This document shows positions 25,913 through 31,007 of a DNA stretch of 48,627 nucleotides, in pieces. The stretch covers positions 1 to 48,627 of the forward strand of contig BJGV01000011.1 of NCBI GenBank assembly GCA_014190895.1. Direction: 5' to 3'. The notes under the pieces were generated by a model. It was not told the origin of the DNA. It worked only from the letters and a program-made list of their open reading frames with translations, and did not search any database. Numbering within the stretch: position 1 is the stretch's first letter; the number at the start of each line of letters is the position of its first letter. Made by a program: the position numbers and the translations under genes. This stretch comes from Nitrosomonadaceae bacterium. Its GTDB lineage: Bacteria; Pseudomonadota; Gammaproteobacteria; Burkholderiales; Nitrosomonadaceae.

Positions 25913-27130
25913 TTAATTCTTGTTGATAGTCGCCTTAATTCTATCCCCTGCTATCTTAATATTATCAAGAGCTTTTCTAATAACAGAACGAGGGAAGCCA
26001 ATATTCATACGCATAAATCTGCTGCCCTCTTTACCAAATAAGATACCGGGGCTCATTCCCACGTTGGCATCATGTACAAAAAAATGATTAAGTTGTGAGT
26101 CGCTCATCCCAAGTTCACGGCAATCGAGCCACAATAAATAAGTCCCTTCTGGTTTGATAAGTCGTATCACAGGAAGATAAGTCGCTAAATATTTTTCGAC
26201 ATAATCTCTTGTATCTCCCAAATAAATAATTAATGCGTTCAACCATGTCTCGCCTTCTCGATAAGCGGCTTCAAAGGCGACAATACTAAATGGATTAGCT
26301 GCACTGACATGCGAAATCTCCAAGGTACGGATAATAGAGGCTCGACGTTTTTTATCTGATACAACAAGTGCCGCAAGATTCAGGCCAGGAATATTGAATG
26401 TCTTGCTGGGTGCGACGGCAGTAATGACGTCAACTGACTCTCCAGCTAACATTGCAAGCATGTGATGTTTATTCTCTGAATAAATCAAATCTGAATGAAT
26501 TTCATCCGAAAATATAATTAGATTATATTTTCTTGCAATGTCCAGAAGATGACCTAATTCTAGTTTGCTCCATACCCTTCCCACTGGATTGTGTGGAGAG
26601 CAAAATAACAGTAATCGAGCGTGCTTAGCACATTGCTCCAGATGATCAAAATCAATGGTATAACGACCATTCTTTAGATGTAATGGATTTTCTATTATCT
26701 GCCTACCGGTATTAGTAACAGCAGAAAAGAAGGGAGCGTAAATTGGTGGCTGTATAATAACGGACTCACCTGGCTCAGTGAAGGTCATAACAGCGGCATG
26801 CAGTGAAGATACTACACCAGGGCAAAGTACTACCCATTCATGTTTTATTTGCCAAGAATGGCGCCGTTTCAACCAGTCTATTAATGCCTCATACAAACTA
26901 TTCGGGTACAAGGTATATCCATATACAGGATGGTTAGCACGATCGACAAGCGCTTGTGTCACGGCCAGAGGCGCCGAGAAATCCATATCAGCTACCCAGA
27001 GTGGCGCAATCTCAGCTTTCCCAAACATTTCTAACCGCCCATCGTATTTAAGACTTGCAGTATTGGCACGATTAGTACTTTGATCAAAGCTTTGGTACAG
27101 ATCATAACTAGAATTATGATTACGAATCAA
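25913..27130 (-). CDS. ovoB: PLP-dependent C-S lyase, probable OvoB of ovothiol synthesis (PatB/MalY-like)
   Basis: A 405-residue fold-type I PLP enzyme of the PatB/MalY cystathionine beta-lyase group. Motifs: PLWVADMDF, VYGYTLYP, CPGVVSSL, LLLFCSPHNPVGRVW, FSDEIHSDLIY (Asp contacts the pyridine N) and APSKTFNIPGLN with the Schiff-base Lys243. The start overlaps the stop of ovoA by four bases (ATGA), so the two are translationally coupled. OvoB is the PLP lyase that cleaves the histidyl-cysteine sulfoxide made by OvoA to release 5-thiohistidine (4-thiohistidine in older numbering), so the operon position suggests this role. By sequence alone it could be a cystathionine beta-lyase. Confidence 0.8.
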   Translation of the reverse strand: MIRNHNSSYDLYQSFDQSTNRANTASLKYDGRLEMFGKAEIAPLWVADMDFSAPLAVTQALVDRANHPVYGYTLYPNSLYEALIDWLKRRHSWQIKHEWVVLCPGVVSSLHAAVMTFTEPGESVIIQPPIYAPFFSAVTNTGRQIIENPLHLKNGRYTIDFDHLEQCAKHARLLLFCSPHNPVGRVWSKLELGHLLDIARKYNLIIFSDEIHSDLIYSENKHHMLAMLAGESVDVITAVAPSKTFNIPGLNLAALVVSDKKRRASIIRTLEISHVSAANPFSIVAFEAAYREGETWLNALIIYLGDTRDYVEKYLATYLPVIRLIKPEGTYLLWLDCRELGMSDSQLNHFFVHDANVGMSPGILFGKEGSRFMRMNIGFPRSVIRKALDNIKIAGDRIKATINKN

Positions 27131-29238
27131 GCAATTCTCTCCCAGATAGTAACATCAGACAGACTGTGCTGAAACTTACGTCTAGTCTCACGAATAACAA
27201 ATGGGACCTCCTCCGGACCATGAATCAACTTAAAATGGTTTCCTAGAGACGCTTTGAGGCCATCTAGAGTAGTAAAATTTTCACCATCTCTCTTAAATCC
27301 ACCAATCCATTCCTCTCGTTTTGTATGCTCTGCCAGCCAAGTATAGGGGGAGGCAATCAACAAATGCCCACCAAGATTAAGCCGGCTATGAATAGTTGAG
27401 AGAAGCTTAATTGGGTCATAAAGACGATCAATCAAATTAGCAGCAAAAATAAGATCATAACCTGCATGTATGGGCTTGAGATTGCACGCATCTCCTTGAT
27501 AAAACTCTACTTTATGTTTGATAGCATCTAAATCCATAGTGGCAAGTGTGCGTTCTTTATAAGAAACAAGATCGCCCTCATCCACTAAAAGATAACGCAA
27601 GAAACCTTGTTGAGCAAGTTGAACCCCTTGACCAATAAAACGAGTTGAGAAATCAATACCTGTAACGCGATCAAAATGCTTTGCTAATTCAAAAGTGGCG
27701 CGTCCTGATGCACAACCAAGATCAAGCGCCTTATGTACTGGTTTGTCCTTCATAGTGGTCATGGCAAGTTTAACCAGAGTTTCTAGGAAATTAGATACGC
27801 CAAAATATGTGTCCCCGTAATGAAATTCAGCATACTCCGAGAGTAATTTATCCGTTTCGTAGTGCGAATTTTCTTCAATTATAGGTCTGTCCGCAACGAC
27901 ATAACGAAATCCAGCATGCTGAAAGAAATGCCGACGAAAAGCATAACGAGCGGTCCTTAATGACTCTTCACCGCAAGAGATCCAGGAGCCACCCTTAATT
28001 AAATTGTGTCGATTGTCAAACGTTGGTGTAGTGAAATCATCGTAGAGAGGATGAACTTTGAAACCTTTAAATGGATAAATTGGTGTTTCTGTCCACTGCC
28101 AAACATTGCCAATTACATCGAAAAATTCCCCGTGCCGAAACTCTGTCACAGGGCAACTGGAGGCAAAATGATCGAGATGGATATTAGCTGCGGCTATTTG
28201 AGCTCGAGGAATCTCAGATAATCCTGCCACGCTATAGAGCCTATACCACTCATTCTCGGTGGGAAGTCTAACCGGCAAACCACTTTCCGTTGCTTTCCAA
28301 TTGCAAAATGCCTTAGCTTCATGATAATTTACTTCTACTGGCCAATCCCATGGCATTAAAACTTCCTCGGTCATTAAACGCAACCACCATTCATTAGTAC
28401 GCTTAATCCAAAAAGTAGGGTGCTCGGCATGAGTGTGATTTTTCCAAGCGCACCCCTCTTCCTCCCAATAATTTTCATTAGCGTAACCATTTGCCCGAAC
28501 AAAGGCCATAAATTCTTGATTACTGACTAAATATTGACTGGCTTGAAAAGCAGAAACATTTGCCTCGCAGGAGCCAAATTCATTATCCCAACCATAAGTT
28601 AGGTCAATTGTATTTTTACCTAAATATACCATTCCTGCTGAAACACCAATCAACTGGTTCTGAGGCGCATATCCCGATTTTCGACAGGGTTCCCAAGTAG
28701 GATGTGACTTTACATGTTTAATTGCATGTTGCCGAATTAATACAGAAGAAGTTTCTAAGTGAATCAGTTCGTGCTCAATACCCATCAAAACAATCCACCA
28801 GGGATTTTCCCAGTTAATTGGTAAAATTAATTGGGCTTCACTGATGAGTCGATCAACAATACCGCGCATGGTATTACGATAACTCTGTACTTCTTTAATT
28901 GATGGCCAATCGTAATCAGGAAAATTAAGATCATCCCAGCTCATTTCATCAACACCAACCGAAAACATTGATTCCATCTTAGGATCAATTCTCTCTTTAA
29001 TTAATCCCGCAACCAGTAACTTATTAATAAAAAAAGTTGATGTATGTCCTAAATAAAAAATTAATGGATGACGCAATGGAATCGATTTTTTAAAGTAAGC
29101 CTCGTCCCCAGCTAACGTAGCAAAAAGTTGCTCAGTAAGATCCAAAGTAGCATGAAAAAAAGCTCGTATCTCTTGTCTTTTGACAGTAACGTCTTCACCA
29201 GAAAGGATCGGTGTTCTCTGAAAAATCTTTCGTAACAT
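27127..29238 (-). CDS. ovoA: 5-histidylcysteine sulfoxide synthase / thiohistidine N-methyltransferase OvoA
   Basis: A trifunctional-looking 703-residue enzyme of ovothiol synthesis. It has a DinB-like iron domain at about residues 25-175, with His65 (YLGHTSTF) and the HxxxHxE iron triad His156, His160, Glu162 in GIEHELIHLETS. An FGE/sulfatase-modifying domain follows at about 195-450 (GWDNEFGS, RLPTENEWYRLY, GNVWQWTE, KGGSWISC, RYAFRRHFFQHAGFRYV). A SAM methyltransferase occupies about 475-703 (KALDLGCASGRATFELAKHF). The iron part couples cysteine to histidine with O2; the methyltransferase adds the N-methyl of ovothiol A. The C-terminal methyltransferase sets it apart from EgtB. The ATG at 29236-29238 has AGAGG eight bases upstream. 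Confidence 0.92.
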   Translation of the reverse strand: MLRKIFQRTPILSGEDVTVKRQEIRAFFHATLDLTEQLFATLAGDEAYFKKSIPLRHPLIFYLGHTSTFFINKLLVAGLIKERIDPKMESMFSVGVDEMSWDDLNFPDYDWPSIKEVQSYRNTMRGIVDRLISEAQLILPINWENPWWIVLMGIEHELIHLETSSVLIRQHAIKHVKSHPTWEPCRKSGYAPQNQLIGVSAGMVYLGKNTIDLTYGWDNEFGSCEANVSAFQASQYLVSNQEFMAFVRANGYANENYWEEEGCAWKNHTHAEHPTFWIKRTNEWWLRLMTEEVLMPWDWPVEVNYHEAKAFCNWKATESGLPVRLPTENEWYRLYSVAGLSEIPRAQIAAANIHLDHFASSCPVTEFRHGEFFDVIGNVWQWTETPIYPFKGFKVHPLYDDFTTPTFDNRHNLIKGGSWISCGEESLRTARYAFRRHFFQHAGFRYVVADRPIIEENSHYETDKLLSEYAEFHYGDTYFGVSNFLETLVKLAMTTMKDKPVHKALDLGCASGRATFELAKHFDRVTGIDFSTRFIGQGVQLAQQGFLRYLLVDEGDLVSYKERTLATMDLDAIKHKVEFYQGDACNLKPIHAGYDLIFAANLIDRLYDPIKLLSTIHSRLNLGGHLLIASPYTWLAEHTKREEWIGGFKRDGENFTTLDGLKASLGNHFKLIHGPEEVPFVIRETRRKFQHSLSDVTIWERIA

Positions 29239-29434: not shown

Positions 29435-29674
29435 CTAGTCTTCTGAACTTAATGGATCGAAGAGTGGGTCAATTTCTATATTATTAAGTTTTTCTATAAT
29501 ACGCAAAGAGAAGCCATCATCAGGTGTTGACTGCCCGCGCATAATATCTCCTAAAAAATGATAATAAAACCAATTGTCTCTGAAGTCGGTGTCATCTCGA
29601 AAGTCAACAAAAAAATTTTCTGCTTTATCTGTAACAAGTTCAAAATCAATATACATGGATAAACTTTCTTTCAT
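29435..29674 (-). CDS. Truncated RseA-like anti-sigma factor (cytoplasmic domain only)
   Basis: A 79-residue protein overlapping the end of rpoE by four bases (ATGA). It resembles the N-terminal, sigma-binding domain of RseA: KESLSMYIDFEL at the start, then FRDNWFYYHFLGDIMRGQ, which matches the W-x2-YH-x-I-x-D-x-MRG core, then a terminal helix with LRIIEKLNNIEIDP. Normal RseA is about 200 residues with a transmembrane helix and periplasmic domain that is cut by DegS/RseP. Here the frame ends with TAG after SSED. The sequence beyond is not a recognisable RseA remnant in any frame, and only 196 bp remain before ovoA. So it appears to be a soluble anti-sigma factor, or a decayed gene. Confidence 0.75.
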   Translation of the reverse strand: MKESLSMYIDFELVTDKAENFFVDFRDDTDFRDNWFYYHFLGDIMRGQSTPDDGFSLRIIEKLNNIEIDPLFDPLSSED

Positions 29675-30264
29675 CTTGCCCTCCTGTCGCGATGTGGCTC
29701 TAGTAGCGGTCGTAAAGAATCTGTCATTATTTCACGGGCGCGAGATATTCTTGAGCGTACTGTGCCTAAAGGACATTTCATAACAACCGCAATCTCACTA
29801 TAGCTCATTCCATTTATTTCCCTAAGAGTGATAGCCTGACACAAATCTTTCGGAAGGGTTTTTAACGCATTCGAAATACTTTCAGCAAGCTGTTTGGCTA
29901 TTAAGAGCCTTTCTGGATCTTCAGTATCTATAATTACTGGCTCTATTAATTCGTTCGTTTCTACGTTATATGACGGCTCGTAAAGTGATAAGCGAACTCG
30001 TTCGGCACTGAGATGATTCTTAGCTGCATTGACCCCAATTCGGTGTAACCAAGTAGAAAACTGGCTCTTTCCTTGAAATGTTAAGATTCCTCGGTAAGCA
30101 TTGACAAAAGCTTCTTGCGTGATCTCCTCAACCTGTTGAGGAGATCTAATATAACGAGAGATCACATATGCAATTCTGCGTTGATATTTAATAACCAACA
30201 GATCAAAAGCATGTCGATCGCCTAGTTGCGTACGTTTTACTAAATCAAGATCAGTAGTGTCCAT
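29671..30264 (-). CDS. rpoE: ECF sigma factor RpoE (sigma-E/AlgU type)
   Basis: A 197-residue extracytoplasmic-function sigma factor. Region 2 (about 8-90) has GDRHAFDLLVIKYQRRI, EEITQEAFVNAYRGILTFQG and FSTWLHRIGVNAAKNHL. Region 4 (about 125-185) has LPKDLCQAITLREINGMSYSEIAVVMKCPLGTVRSRISRAREIM, the RpoE-type helix-turn-helix with KCPLGTVRSRI. This is the envelope-stress class, not the FecI iron class. It is followed and overlapped by a short RseA-like gene, as in the rpoE-rseA operon of other proteobacteria, but rseB and mucD/degP are missing from this locus. An AGGA lies just upstream of the ATG. Confidence 0.93.
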   Translation of the reverse strand: MDTTDLDLVKRTQLGDRHAFDLLVIKYQRRIAYVISRYIRSPQQVEEITQEAFVNAYRGILTFQGKSQFSTWLHRIGVNAAKNHLSAERVRLSLYEPSYNVETNELIEPVIIDTEDPERLLIAKQLAESISNALKTLPKDLCQAITLREINGMSYSEIAVVMKCPLGTVRSRISRAREIMTDSLRPLLEPHRDRRAR

Positions 30265-30557: not shown

Positions 30558-31007
30558 GTGATTAAAAAATTAAACTACACTATCTGGATAACATGGCCAA
30601 GCAGGTGTCTGCTAGCTGGACTCCTATCCGCATGTCAAACAATTACAAATAGCACAGATCAGACTGCGGTAGGTGAAATAAATCGGATCTTAAGTTCCCC
30701 CATTGAAAAAATTTTTAATTCTAATAGTAATGGCTCAATTGAGAGTTATCTTTCGAATTTAGACAGAGAAAATATGGCCAAAATGACACAAAACGCTGTT
30801 GATACAGACCGACCACAAGTATTTTACAATCCGGATAGCGGTATACAAGGGCAAGCGGAGATAATTCAATTAGAAATGCTATCCATGCAAGAAACAGGAC
30901 AAAAAGATAAGGTCCAGAAATGCAAAATAATTCGACAAATCATTACTTTTAAAGACGGGAGGGAAATTAGCGAGAATACAACAATTTGTAGAAAATTAGA
31001 TAAATAA
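30558..31007 (+). CDS. Hypothetical lipoprotein
   Basis: 149 residues with a type II signal peptide: a basic start (MIKKLNY), a hydrophobic stretch, and a lipobox LLSAC with the modified cysteine at residue 26. The mature protein is hydrophilic, rich in Asn, Ser and Gln, and ends with a Cys-containing strand pair (KCKIIRQIITFKDGREISENTTICRK) that could form a disulfide. I do not recognise the family; the C-terminal layout recalls small outer-membrane surface-antigen proteins, but not strongly. The start is GTG at 30558; an overlapping ATG at 30553 is out of frame. It stands alone after a 293-bp gap and converges with the zinc-ribbon gene, 13 bp away. Confidence 0.65.
   Translation: MIKKLNYTIWITWPSRCLLAGLLSACQTITNSTDQTAVGEINRILSSPIEKIFNSNSNGSIESYLSNLDRENMAKMTQNAVDTDRPQVFYNPDSGIQGQAEIIQLEMLSMQETGQKDKVQKCKIIRQIITFKDGREISENTTICRKLDK

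Follow-up and report, generated by a model that had tools for sequence, protein, structure and literature searches.

Anti-sigma factors of the RseA type include two membrane proteins, RseA of Escherichia coli and MucA of Pseudomonas aeruginosa (PDB 1OR7 and 6IN7), which are recognised by one transmembrane helix, a periplasmic domain that binds RseB and an rseB gene in the same operon. According to the contact list in PMC7406223, it is through helix 4 that E. coli RseA touches sigma region 2. In both species, the cut cytoplasmic fragment is reported to keep its sigma bound, SspB handing the fragment to ClpXP (PMC8103513, PMC13251409), and residues 1-80 of MucA are described as the sigma-bound core (PMC13251409). 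Of the class-I anti-sigmas, 35% are given as soluble, and about 72% of these soluble proteins carry a zinc motif (PMC7406223); one such protein is MseR from Neisseria (PMC2893595). Soluble anti-sigmas are held to descend from membrane ones by truncation (PMC8103513). A ChrR-like pair reported from P. syringae (PMC5507510) was set aside from our comparison.

In this report, we analysed an ECF sigma/anti-sigma gene pair in a window (the whole stretch of DNA studied) of 48,627 nucleotides. The anti-sigma shares with RseA and MucA the sigma-binding domain, the D11-type contact, helix 4 and an adjacent RpoE-like sigma, but lacks the membrane helix, the periplasmic domain and an adjacent rseB or protease gene, and has a C-terminal tail of its own and a paralogous sigma. 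Like RsrA, ChrR and MseR, soluble class-I proteins with a zinc motif, it is small, cytoplasmic and encoded directly after an ECF sigma gene, whereas its sequence is of RseA type, with no cysteine and no His-x3-Cys-x2-Cys motif. It belongs to the general class of soluble class-I proteins without a zinc motif, a class that from the numbers in PMC7406223 makes up about 28% of the soluble anti-sigmas. In content, it is about the same as RseAcyto and MucAcyto, the fragments left by RseP cleavage, which are reported still to bind sigma (PMC8103513, PMC13251409), except that it is encoded as such rather than made by proteolysis, in a genome in which SspB was not found. Soluble anti-sigmas are already known, and what is new here is the combination of an RseA-type core, absence of cysteine and a distinct tail. 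A literature search over titles and the beginnings of abstracts found no described anti-sigma with an RseA_N core and such a tail, a group that the supplements of ECF classifications may list.

Results

Both genes of the pair, and all their features given below, are on the minus strand. The first (29671..30264) is an open reading frame encoding a 197-aa ECF sigma factor in which sigma-70 regions 2 and 4 are matched (Sigma70_r2, Sigma70_r4_2). It scores 219.4 bits with the RpoE equivalog model TIGR02939, under the cut-off of 236.15, and is classed, by this score and by the tree described below, as an RpoE-like paralogue. The sigma stop and the start of the second gene (29435..29674) overlap in the 4 nt ATGA (29671..29674), so the two would be translationally coupled; a Shine-Dalgarno-like AGGAGG (29680..29685) stands 5 nt ahead of the second ATG. 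The second gene encodes a putative soluble RseA-type anti-sigma of 79 aa, which matches RseA_N (PF03872) with an E value of 2.9e-7 and 31.4 bits, above the Pfam cut-off of 24. A profile of this protein and six relatives has as its first match E. coli RseA (PDB 1OR7, E 3.5e-6). The highest mean hydropathy over a 19-residue window is 0.44, which by this simple measure leaves no membrane helix, and the protein contains neither a cysteine nor the zinc motif. This bears out the preliminary description of the locus, which saw in the anti-sigma the cytoplasmic RseA domain only; the core motif proposed there, W-x2-YH-x-I-x-D-x-MRG, was nearly right, the window having W-x2-YH-x-L-G-D-x-MRG.

None of the three features of membrane RseA and MucA listed above was found in the 79-aa protein or beside its gene. 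By sequence alignment, it would class with the soluble class-I anti-sigmas (ASDI): the sigma contacts are there in helices 1, 3 and 4, a membrane helix is absent and an ECF sigma gene is adjacent. A Pfam search found no sensor domain in the 79 aa, and the gene list of the neighbourhood includes neither rseB nor mucD/degP near the pair. AlphaFold, run on the single sequence, produced a poor model (mean pLDDT of 52) with helices at residues 11-27, 31-45 and 54-64. Because the sigma-binding helices and the key contacts are retained, the protein is read as a cytoplasmic anti-sigma, predicted to be in working order. Divergent from the sigma gene is a lipoprotein-like frame of 149 aa (window 30558-31007), for which neither Pfam (E <= 0.1) nor NCBIfam (E <= 0.001) gave a match.

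Helices 1, 3 and 4 of E. coli RseA are retained in the short proteins, helix 1 together with its key aspartate (D11 in E. coli, D10 in the window protein). Helix 4 is assigned to codons 54-64 (29483..29515) by alignment to E. coli RseA and the contact list in PMC7406223. That list tabulates, in 25 rows, the contacts common to four solved sigma/anti-sigma complexes. We mapped 23 of these rows and D11-R178, i.e., 24 residue pairs, on nine sigma/anti-sigma pairs, of which six have a short and three a full-length anti-sigma. D11-R178 is conserved in all nine pairs, and hydrophobic residues occupy positions 59 and 63, facing F22, in all six short ones. R31-D51 is found in each of the six short pairs, whereas the three full-length pairs have H-L, G-N and R-M instead, a count that depends on the placement of an alignment gap, the one that also took position 55 out of the comparison; this specificity suggests that short and canonical pairs are insulated from each other. 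R149 is changed to Y or F in two of the short pairs (G023 and G192).

After helix 4 comes a conserved tail, IEIDPLFDPL in the window (codons 66-75, 29450..29479), which aligns in no full-length RseA examined; in local alignment, none of the full-length rows reached this part. The tail follows the pattern [I/M]-[D/E]-x-x-[F/Y]-[D/N]-P-[L/I/R] in 11 of 11 aligned short proteins, among which S6, D10, L13, R32, Y38, G42, D43, R46, G47, D52, D53, G54, I59 and P74 are invariant. Residues beyond the tail vary among relatives. One short protein, in G258, has no tail and ends in IDPA, and in G175 a contig end hides the tail from view.

The genome to which the window belongs (G000) comprises 1.32 Mb in 25 contigs and is 99.97% complete. 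RseA_N has two matches in it: the window gene and a 171-aa protein on contig 4 with a membrane stretch (hydropathy 2.09). The gene order at this second locus is nadB (divergent), rpoE, rseA, rseB, a gene for a Do-family protease, an 87-aa gene and lepA. The RpoE encoded there reaches 265.2 bits with TIGR02939, over the cut-off given above. RseB matches both Pfam MucB_RseB domains over cut-off, and scores 126.6 with the NCBI RseB equivalog model, under its cut-off of 368. The protease, of the DegP/HtrA kind, scores 497.1 bits (cut-off 416.2), and a homologue of RseP is encoded on contig 15 (391.6 bits). Since the genome thus has a complete membrane RpoE-RseA locus and RseP, the window pair is an additional system, a second, paralogous ECF switch and not the sigma-E of the cell. 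The preliminary description had taken it for sigma-E, which does not stand in view of this locus and of the separate lineage that the window sigma forms in the tree. Its remark that rseB and mucD/degP are missing beside the pair is correct for the window, but unremarkable because both are present at the canonical rpoE locus, as is the second full-length rseA that it proposed to look for.

Two further observations concern the sigma factors of this genome. Region 2 has only three matches across it, the third being a 278-aa protein of RpoH size and look (L033 1024-1860, contig 2), and the main sigma factor gene seems either absent from the assembly or missed by the region-2 search. At the canonical locus (L001 1201-2314), RpoE sits on a long branch outside its own genus in the sigma tree, and in helix 4 of RseA the contact positions 59 and 60 are occupied by A and N; the classical sigma-E system may be evolving fast here. 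A scan of a collection of genome contigs with the sigma returned 12 loci, and of the three examined, one has a full-length RseA and two are without an RseA match.

Relatives were searched for short RpoE-linked frames, as the preliminary description had proposed, and these were found, whereas the outcome that it held would overturn its reading, a full-length RseA at the same place, did not appear. A short partner beside an RpoE-like sigma is present in five of the eight genomes of the window organism's own genus, g1 (G000, G001, G005, G006 and G007), and in two of nine genomes of a second genus, g2 (G008 and G136). The g2 proteins are longer (156 and 158 aa), with a duplicated N-terminal part, no membrane stretch and one cysteine each. 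The extra N-terminal copy of the first-helix region in these proteins (L040 8056-8526, L060 1489-1965) might provide two docking sites for sigma region 4. By listed frame lengths, the other 108 of 125 family genomes have no short partner, leaving aside G016 (genus g4), where the canonical rseA has 94 codons and no membrane stretch, is followed by a separate 98-codon frame and looks, from its sequence, as if split (L031 1138-1755). A search of 399 genomes of the order (E <= 1e-10) identified further short partners in G023, G330, G235, G192, G258 and G175, the last gene being interrupted by a contig end. Short partners therefore occur in five families of the order: f1 (with g1 and g2), f3, f6, f11 and f23. 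These counts cover the fetched loci only and hence read as "at least"; a match in G465 with a 93-residue frame was left out. Samples of the class (369 genomes) and the phylum (398 genomes) had no match at E <= 1e-13 beyond the window's own genome, a threshold that divergent forms would escape.

Ninety loci, with some places fetched twice, were compared. A full-length RseA (151-256 aa, hydropathy 1.33-2.69) is encoded in 74 and a short one (65-158 aa, hydropathy 0.31-0.94) in 13; one is the G016 locus with its shortened canonical RseA, and L043 and L044 have no RseA match. The short gene directly adjoins its own sigma gene in all 13 short loci, and the anti-sigma stop is at the same position in the aligned relatives. 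Within the genus, dN/dS is 0.27-0.62 for the anti-sigma (10 pairs) and 0.04-0.16 for the sigma (computable for five of six pairs). In a tree of 81 sigmas, one branch splits the 12 that are beside short partners from the 67 beside full-length RseA (94/72; 95% of 200 bootstrap trees), two rows falling in no group; the bootstrap was unsettled, several rows are long-branched and the root is a midpoint root. The window sigma branches beside the canonical RpoE. This tree is compatible either with a single origin of the short form or with lineages branching off successively.

In both G000 and G008, rplU and obg (identified by Pfam as L21 and Obg) lie a few kb from the pair and are oriented the opposite way, a shared vicinity that agrees with descent of the pair from a common ancestor. 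A carboxysome cluster adjoins the pair in G001, G005 and G006; in G006, it includes CsoS1, CsoS2 and the RuBisCO large subunit by family models. In the window, the next gene downstream of the anti-sigma, after 196 nt, is ovoA (27127..29238, minus strand), encoding a 5-histidylcysteine sulfoxide synthase of ovothiol synthesis (TIGR04344, 662.8 bits, cut-off 400; TIGR04345, 328.2 bits, cut-off 170), a possible target of the window sigma. It overlaps by 4 nt with a gene for a PatB-family C-S lyase (25913..27130, minus strand; TIGR04350, 526.7 bits, cut-off 340), probably the second ovothiol enzyme, which would play the OvoB role. Near the pair, G008 has a glutathione peroxidase and CIA30, G007 a glutathione peroxidase, G006 a NapC-type cytochrome, CIA30 and SOUL, and G005 a Nitrosomonas-type cytochrome c554 over its model cut-off. 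In other families of the order, the neighbours include a fasciclin protein (G023, L041) and FolE2 (G235, L086), and similar-looking neighbours are present, by sequence reading, at L087. AmoA was sought in 11 genomes and matched strongly in G001, G005 and G006, of the same genus as the window organism, and in G008 and G010; no match was obtained in G000, at 99.97% completeness, or in G002, G003, G004, G007 and G009. AmoA in these same-genus genomes and the cytochrome c554 of G005 make Nitrosomonadaceae the probable family. As for the window organism, it may be a reduced relative of ammonia oxidisers that does not itself oxidise ammonia; alternatively, the assembly may lack amo.

The sigma-E-like promoter consensus consists of GGAACTT and GTCNNA. 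Using this consensus with self-chosen weights, we scored 24 upstream regions against 300 shuffles each, and three were exceptional: those of the glutathione peroxidase gene (gpx) in G007 (TGAACTT-15-GTCACA, with 0 of 300 shuffles as good), of gpx in G008 (GGAACTT-15-GTCTTT, 1 of 300) and of the cytochrome c554 gene in G005 (TGAACTA-15-GTCAAA, 1 of 300). Upstream of the window sigma and of ovoA, no convincing sigma-E-like promoter was found, 66 and 99 of 300 shuffles, respectively, being as good. A stricter pattern, KGAACTW-15-GTCNNA, is not enriched across seven genomes, with 18 matches versus 37 for the reversed control. Among these 18, four precede c554-type genes, three precede starts like that of nirK in G006 and one precedes gpx, while six, including the sole match in the window genome, have no open reading frame of at least 70 aa starting within 400 nt. 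The nirK-like matches are 208-263 nt ahead of the copper nitrite reductase gene of G006 and of like-starting genes in G005 and G007, and their two hexamers are conserved around differing spacers; only the G006 gene is named by family search (443.5 bits, cut-off 296.3). The same promoters could also be used by the canonical RpoE. Neighbours and promoters in relatives hint at a regulon for oxidative or nitrogen-oxide stress, which is likely but weakly supported because the neighbouring genes differ between genomes.

Discussion

The explanation that we favour, and that taken as a whole we consider probable, is that the window pair is a second ECF switch, separate from canonical RpoE-RseA, in which the sigma is sequestered in the cytoplasm, is released by an intracellular event and serves an oxidative or nitrogen-oxide regulon. 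The anti-sigma would hold the sigma inactive in the cytoplasm through the sandwich known from E. coli RpoE-RseA, with helix 1 on sigma region 4 and helix 4 on region 2. As the preliminary description had argued, release by DegS and RseP would be closed to the 79-aa protein because it has no membrane or periplasmic segment. A signal from within the cell would act on the anti-sigma to trigger release, most simply via the conserved tail, which occupies the position after helix 4 where a membrane RseA would continue towards its membrane helix. A protease or a partner protein that gripped the tail could pull helix 4 off the sigma, and the short protein would in effect be a permanently pre-cleaved RseA. 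A more specific version, which we put forward tentatively, is that the short RseA is a dedicated intracellular sensor whose tail binds a cytoplasmic ligand or partner so that helix 4 is peeled off. In that case, loss of the membrane half and gain of a short receiver would have turned an old RpoE-RseA duplicate from a switch for envelope stress into one for an oxidative or nitrogen-oxide signal in the cytoplasm.

A similarly tentative alternative is that release occurs by cytosolic proteolysis, in which ClpXP (or Lon) would degrade the anti-sigma while it is bound to the sigma, and the tail would serve as a degron or as a site for an adaptor. By analogy, the short protein would resemble the cytoplasmic fragment that, in E. 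coli and P. aeruginosa, is reported to be handed to ClpXP by SspB (PMC8103513, PMC13251409). However, SspB (PF04386) has no match in the window genome in a search that matched two of 14 control genomes, E. coli and Caulobacter, and the variable residues past the tail argue against a shared C-terminal degron. Without SspB, the alternatives are that a protease acts directly, that a partner protein or a ligand is responsible, or that release is not regulated at all. Of the routes that the preliminary description had listed (ligand, redox, partner and protease), turnover by a cytosolic protease is accordingly narrowed, no SspB having been found for its SspB-aided form. The canonical RseA fragment of this genome would, without SspB, likewise need another route to a protease.

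It is less likely, and on balance we doubt, that the short anti-sigma senses nothing and, produced by coupled translation, damps the sigma constantly and stoichiometrically, activity being set by operon transcription and the ratio of the two proteins. The 4-nt overlap in the window, together with a stretch resembling a ribosome site at the end of the sigma gene in relatives, is what such a damper would call for, and it is in keeping with both a dN/dS that is higher for the anti-sigma than for the sigma and the lack of a recognisable sensor domain. Yet a tail beyond the sigma-binding helices that is conserved across families exceeds what a pure damper needs.

It is improbable that the short protein acts mainly on the canonical RpoE, holding it back as an additional, soluble RseA. 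Most contact residues are indeed common to both sigmas, but the short gene is found beside its own sigma in all 13 short loci, R31-D51 is specific to the short pairs compared (subject to the alignment), and anti-sigmas within one group are reported to be mostly orthogonal (PMC7406223). Sensing of oxidants through zinc or thiols, as in RsrA, ChrR and MseR, is very improbable. The redox-related neighbours, OvoA and glutathione peroxidase, and the prevalence of the zinc motif among soluble class-I anti-sigmas (PMC7406223) would speak for it, but cysteine is absent from the window protein and from 10 of the 12 other short proteins (one of the 12 being cut by a contig end), and in the two long g2 proteins the single cysteine is in the extra N-terminal part. 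A direct cysteine-pair or zinc sensor is ruled out for the 79-aa protein itself because it has no cysteine, which makes this form of the redox route in the preliminary list unlikely; a bound partner could supply one. Finally, a broken or misassembled full-length rseA is the least credible reading, for although a 17-residue hydrophobic stretch lies in another frame just past the window stop (mean hydropathy of 1.82), like stretches lie further on and in varying frames in relatives (1.89 in G006, 1.97 in G001), a full-length rseA exists elsewhere in the genome, dN/dS is below 1, and the same short gene with the same stop in relatives largely refutes a frameshift or assembly error.

The reading of the window pair as a second, cytoplasmic ECF switch matters for two reasons. 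First, it is a caution that an annotated rpoE-rseA pair need not be an envelope-stress system. Second, a single genome has both a full-length and a short RseA-type pair, and the same short form is found in five families, so that direct experiments can ask what takes the place of the membrane relay, on one small cysteine-free protein with one short conserved tail open to mutation. If this reading is true, the short protein takes its orders from inside the cell.
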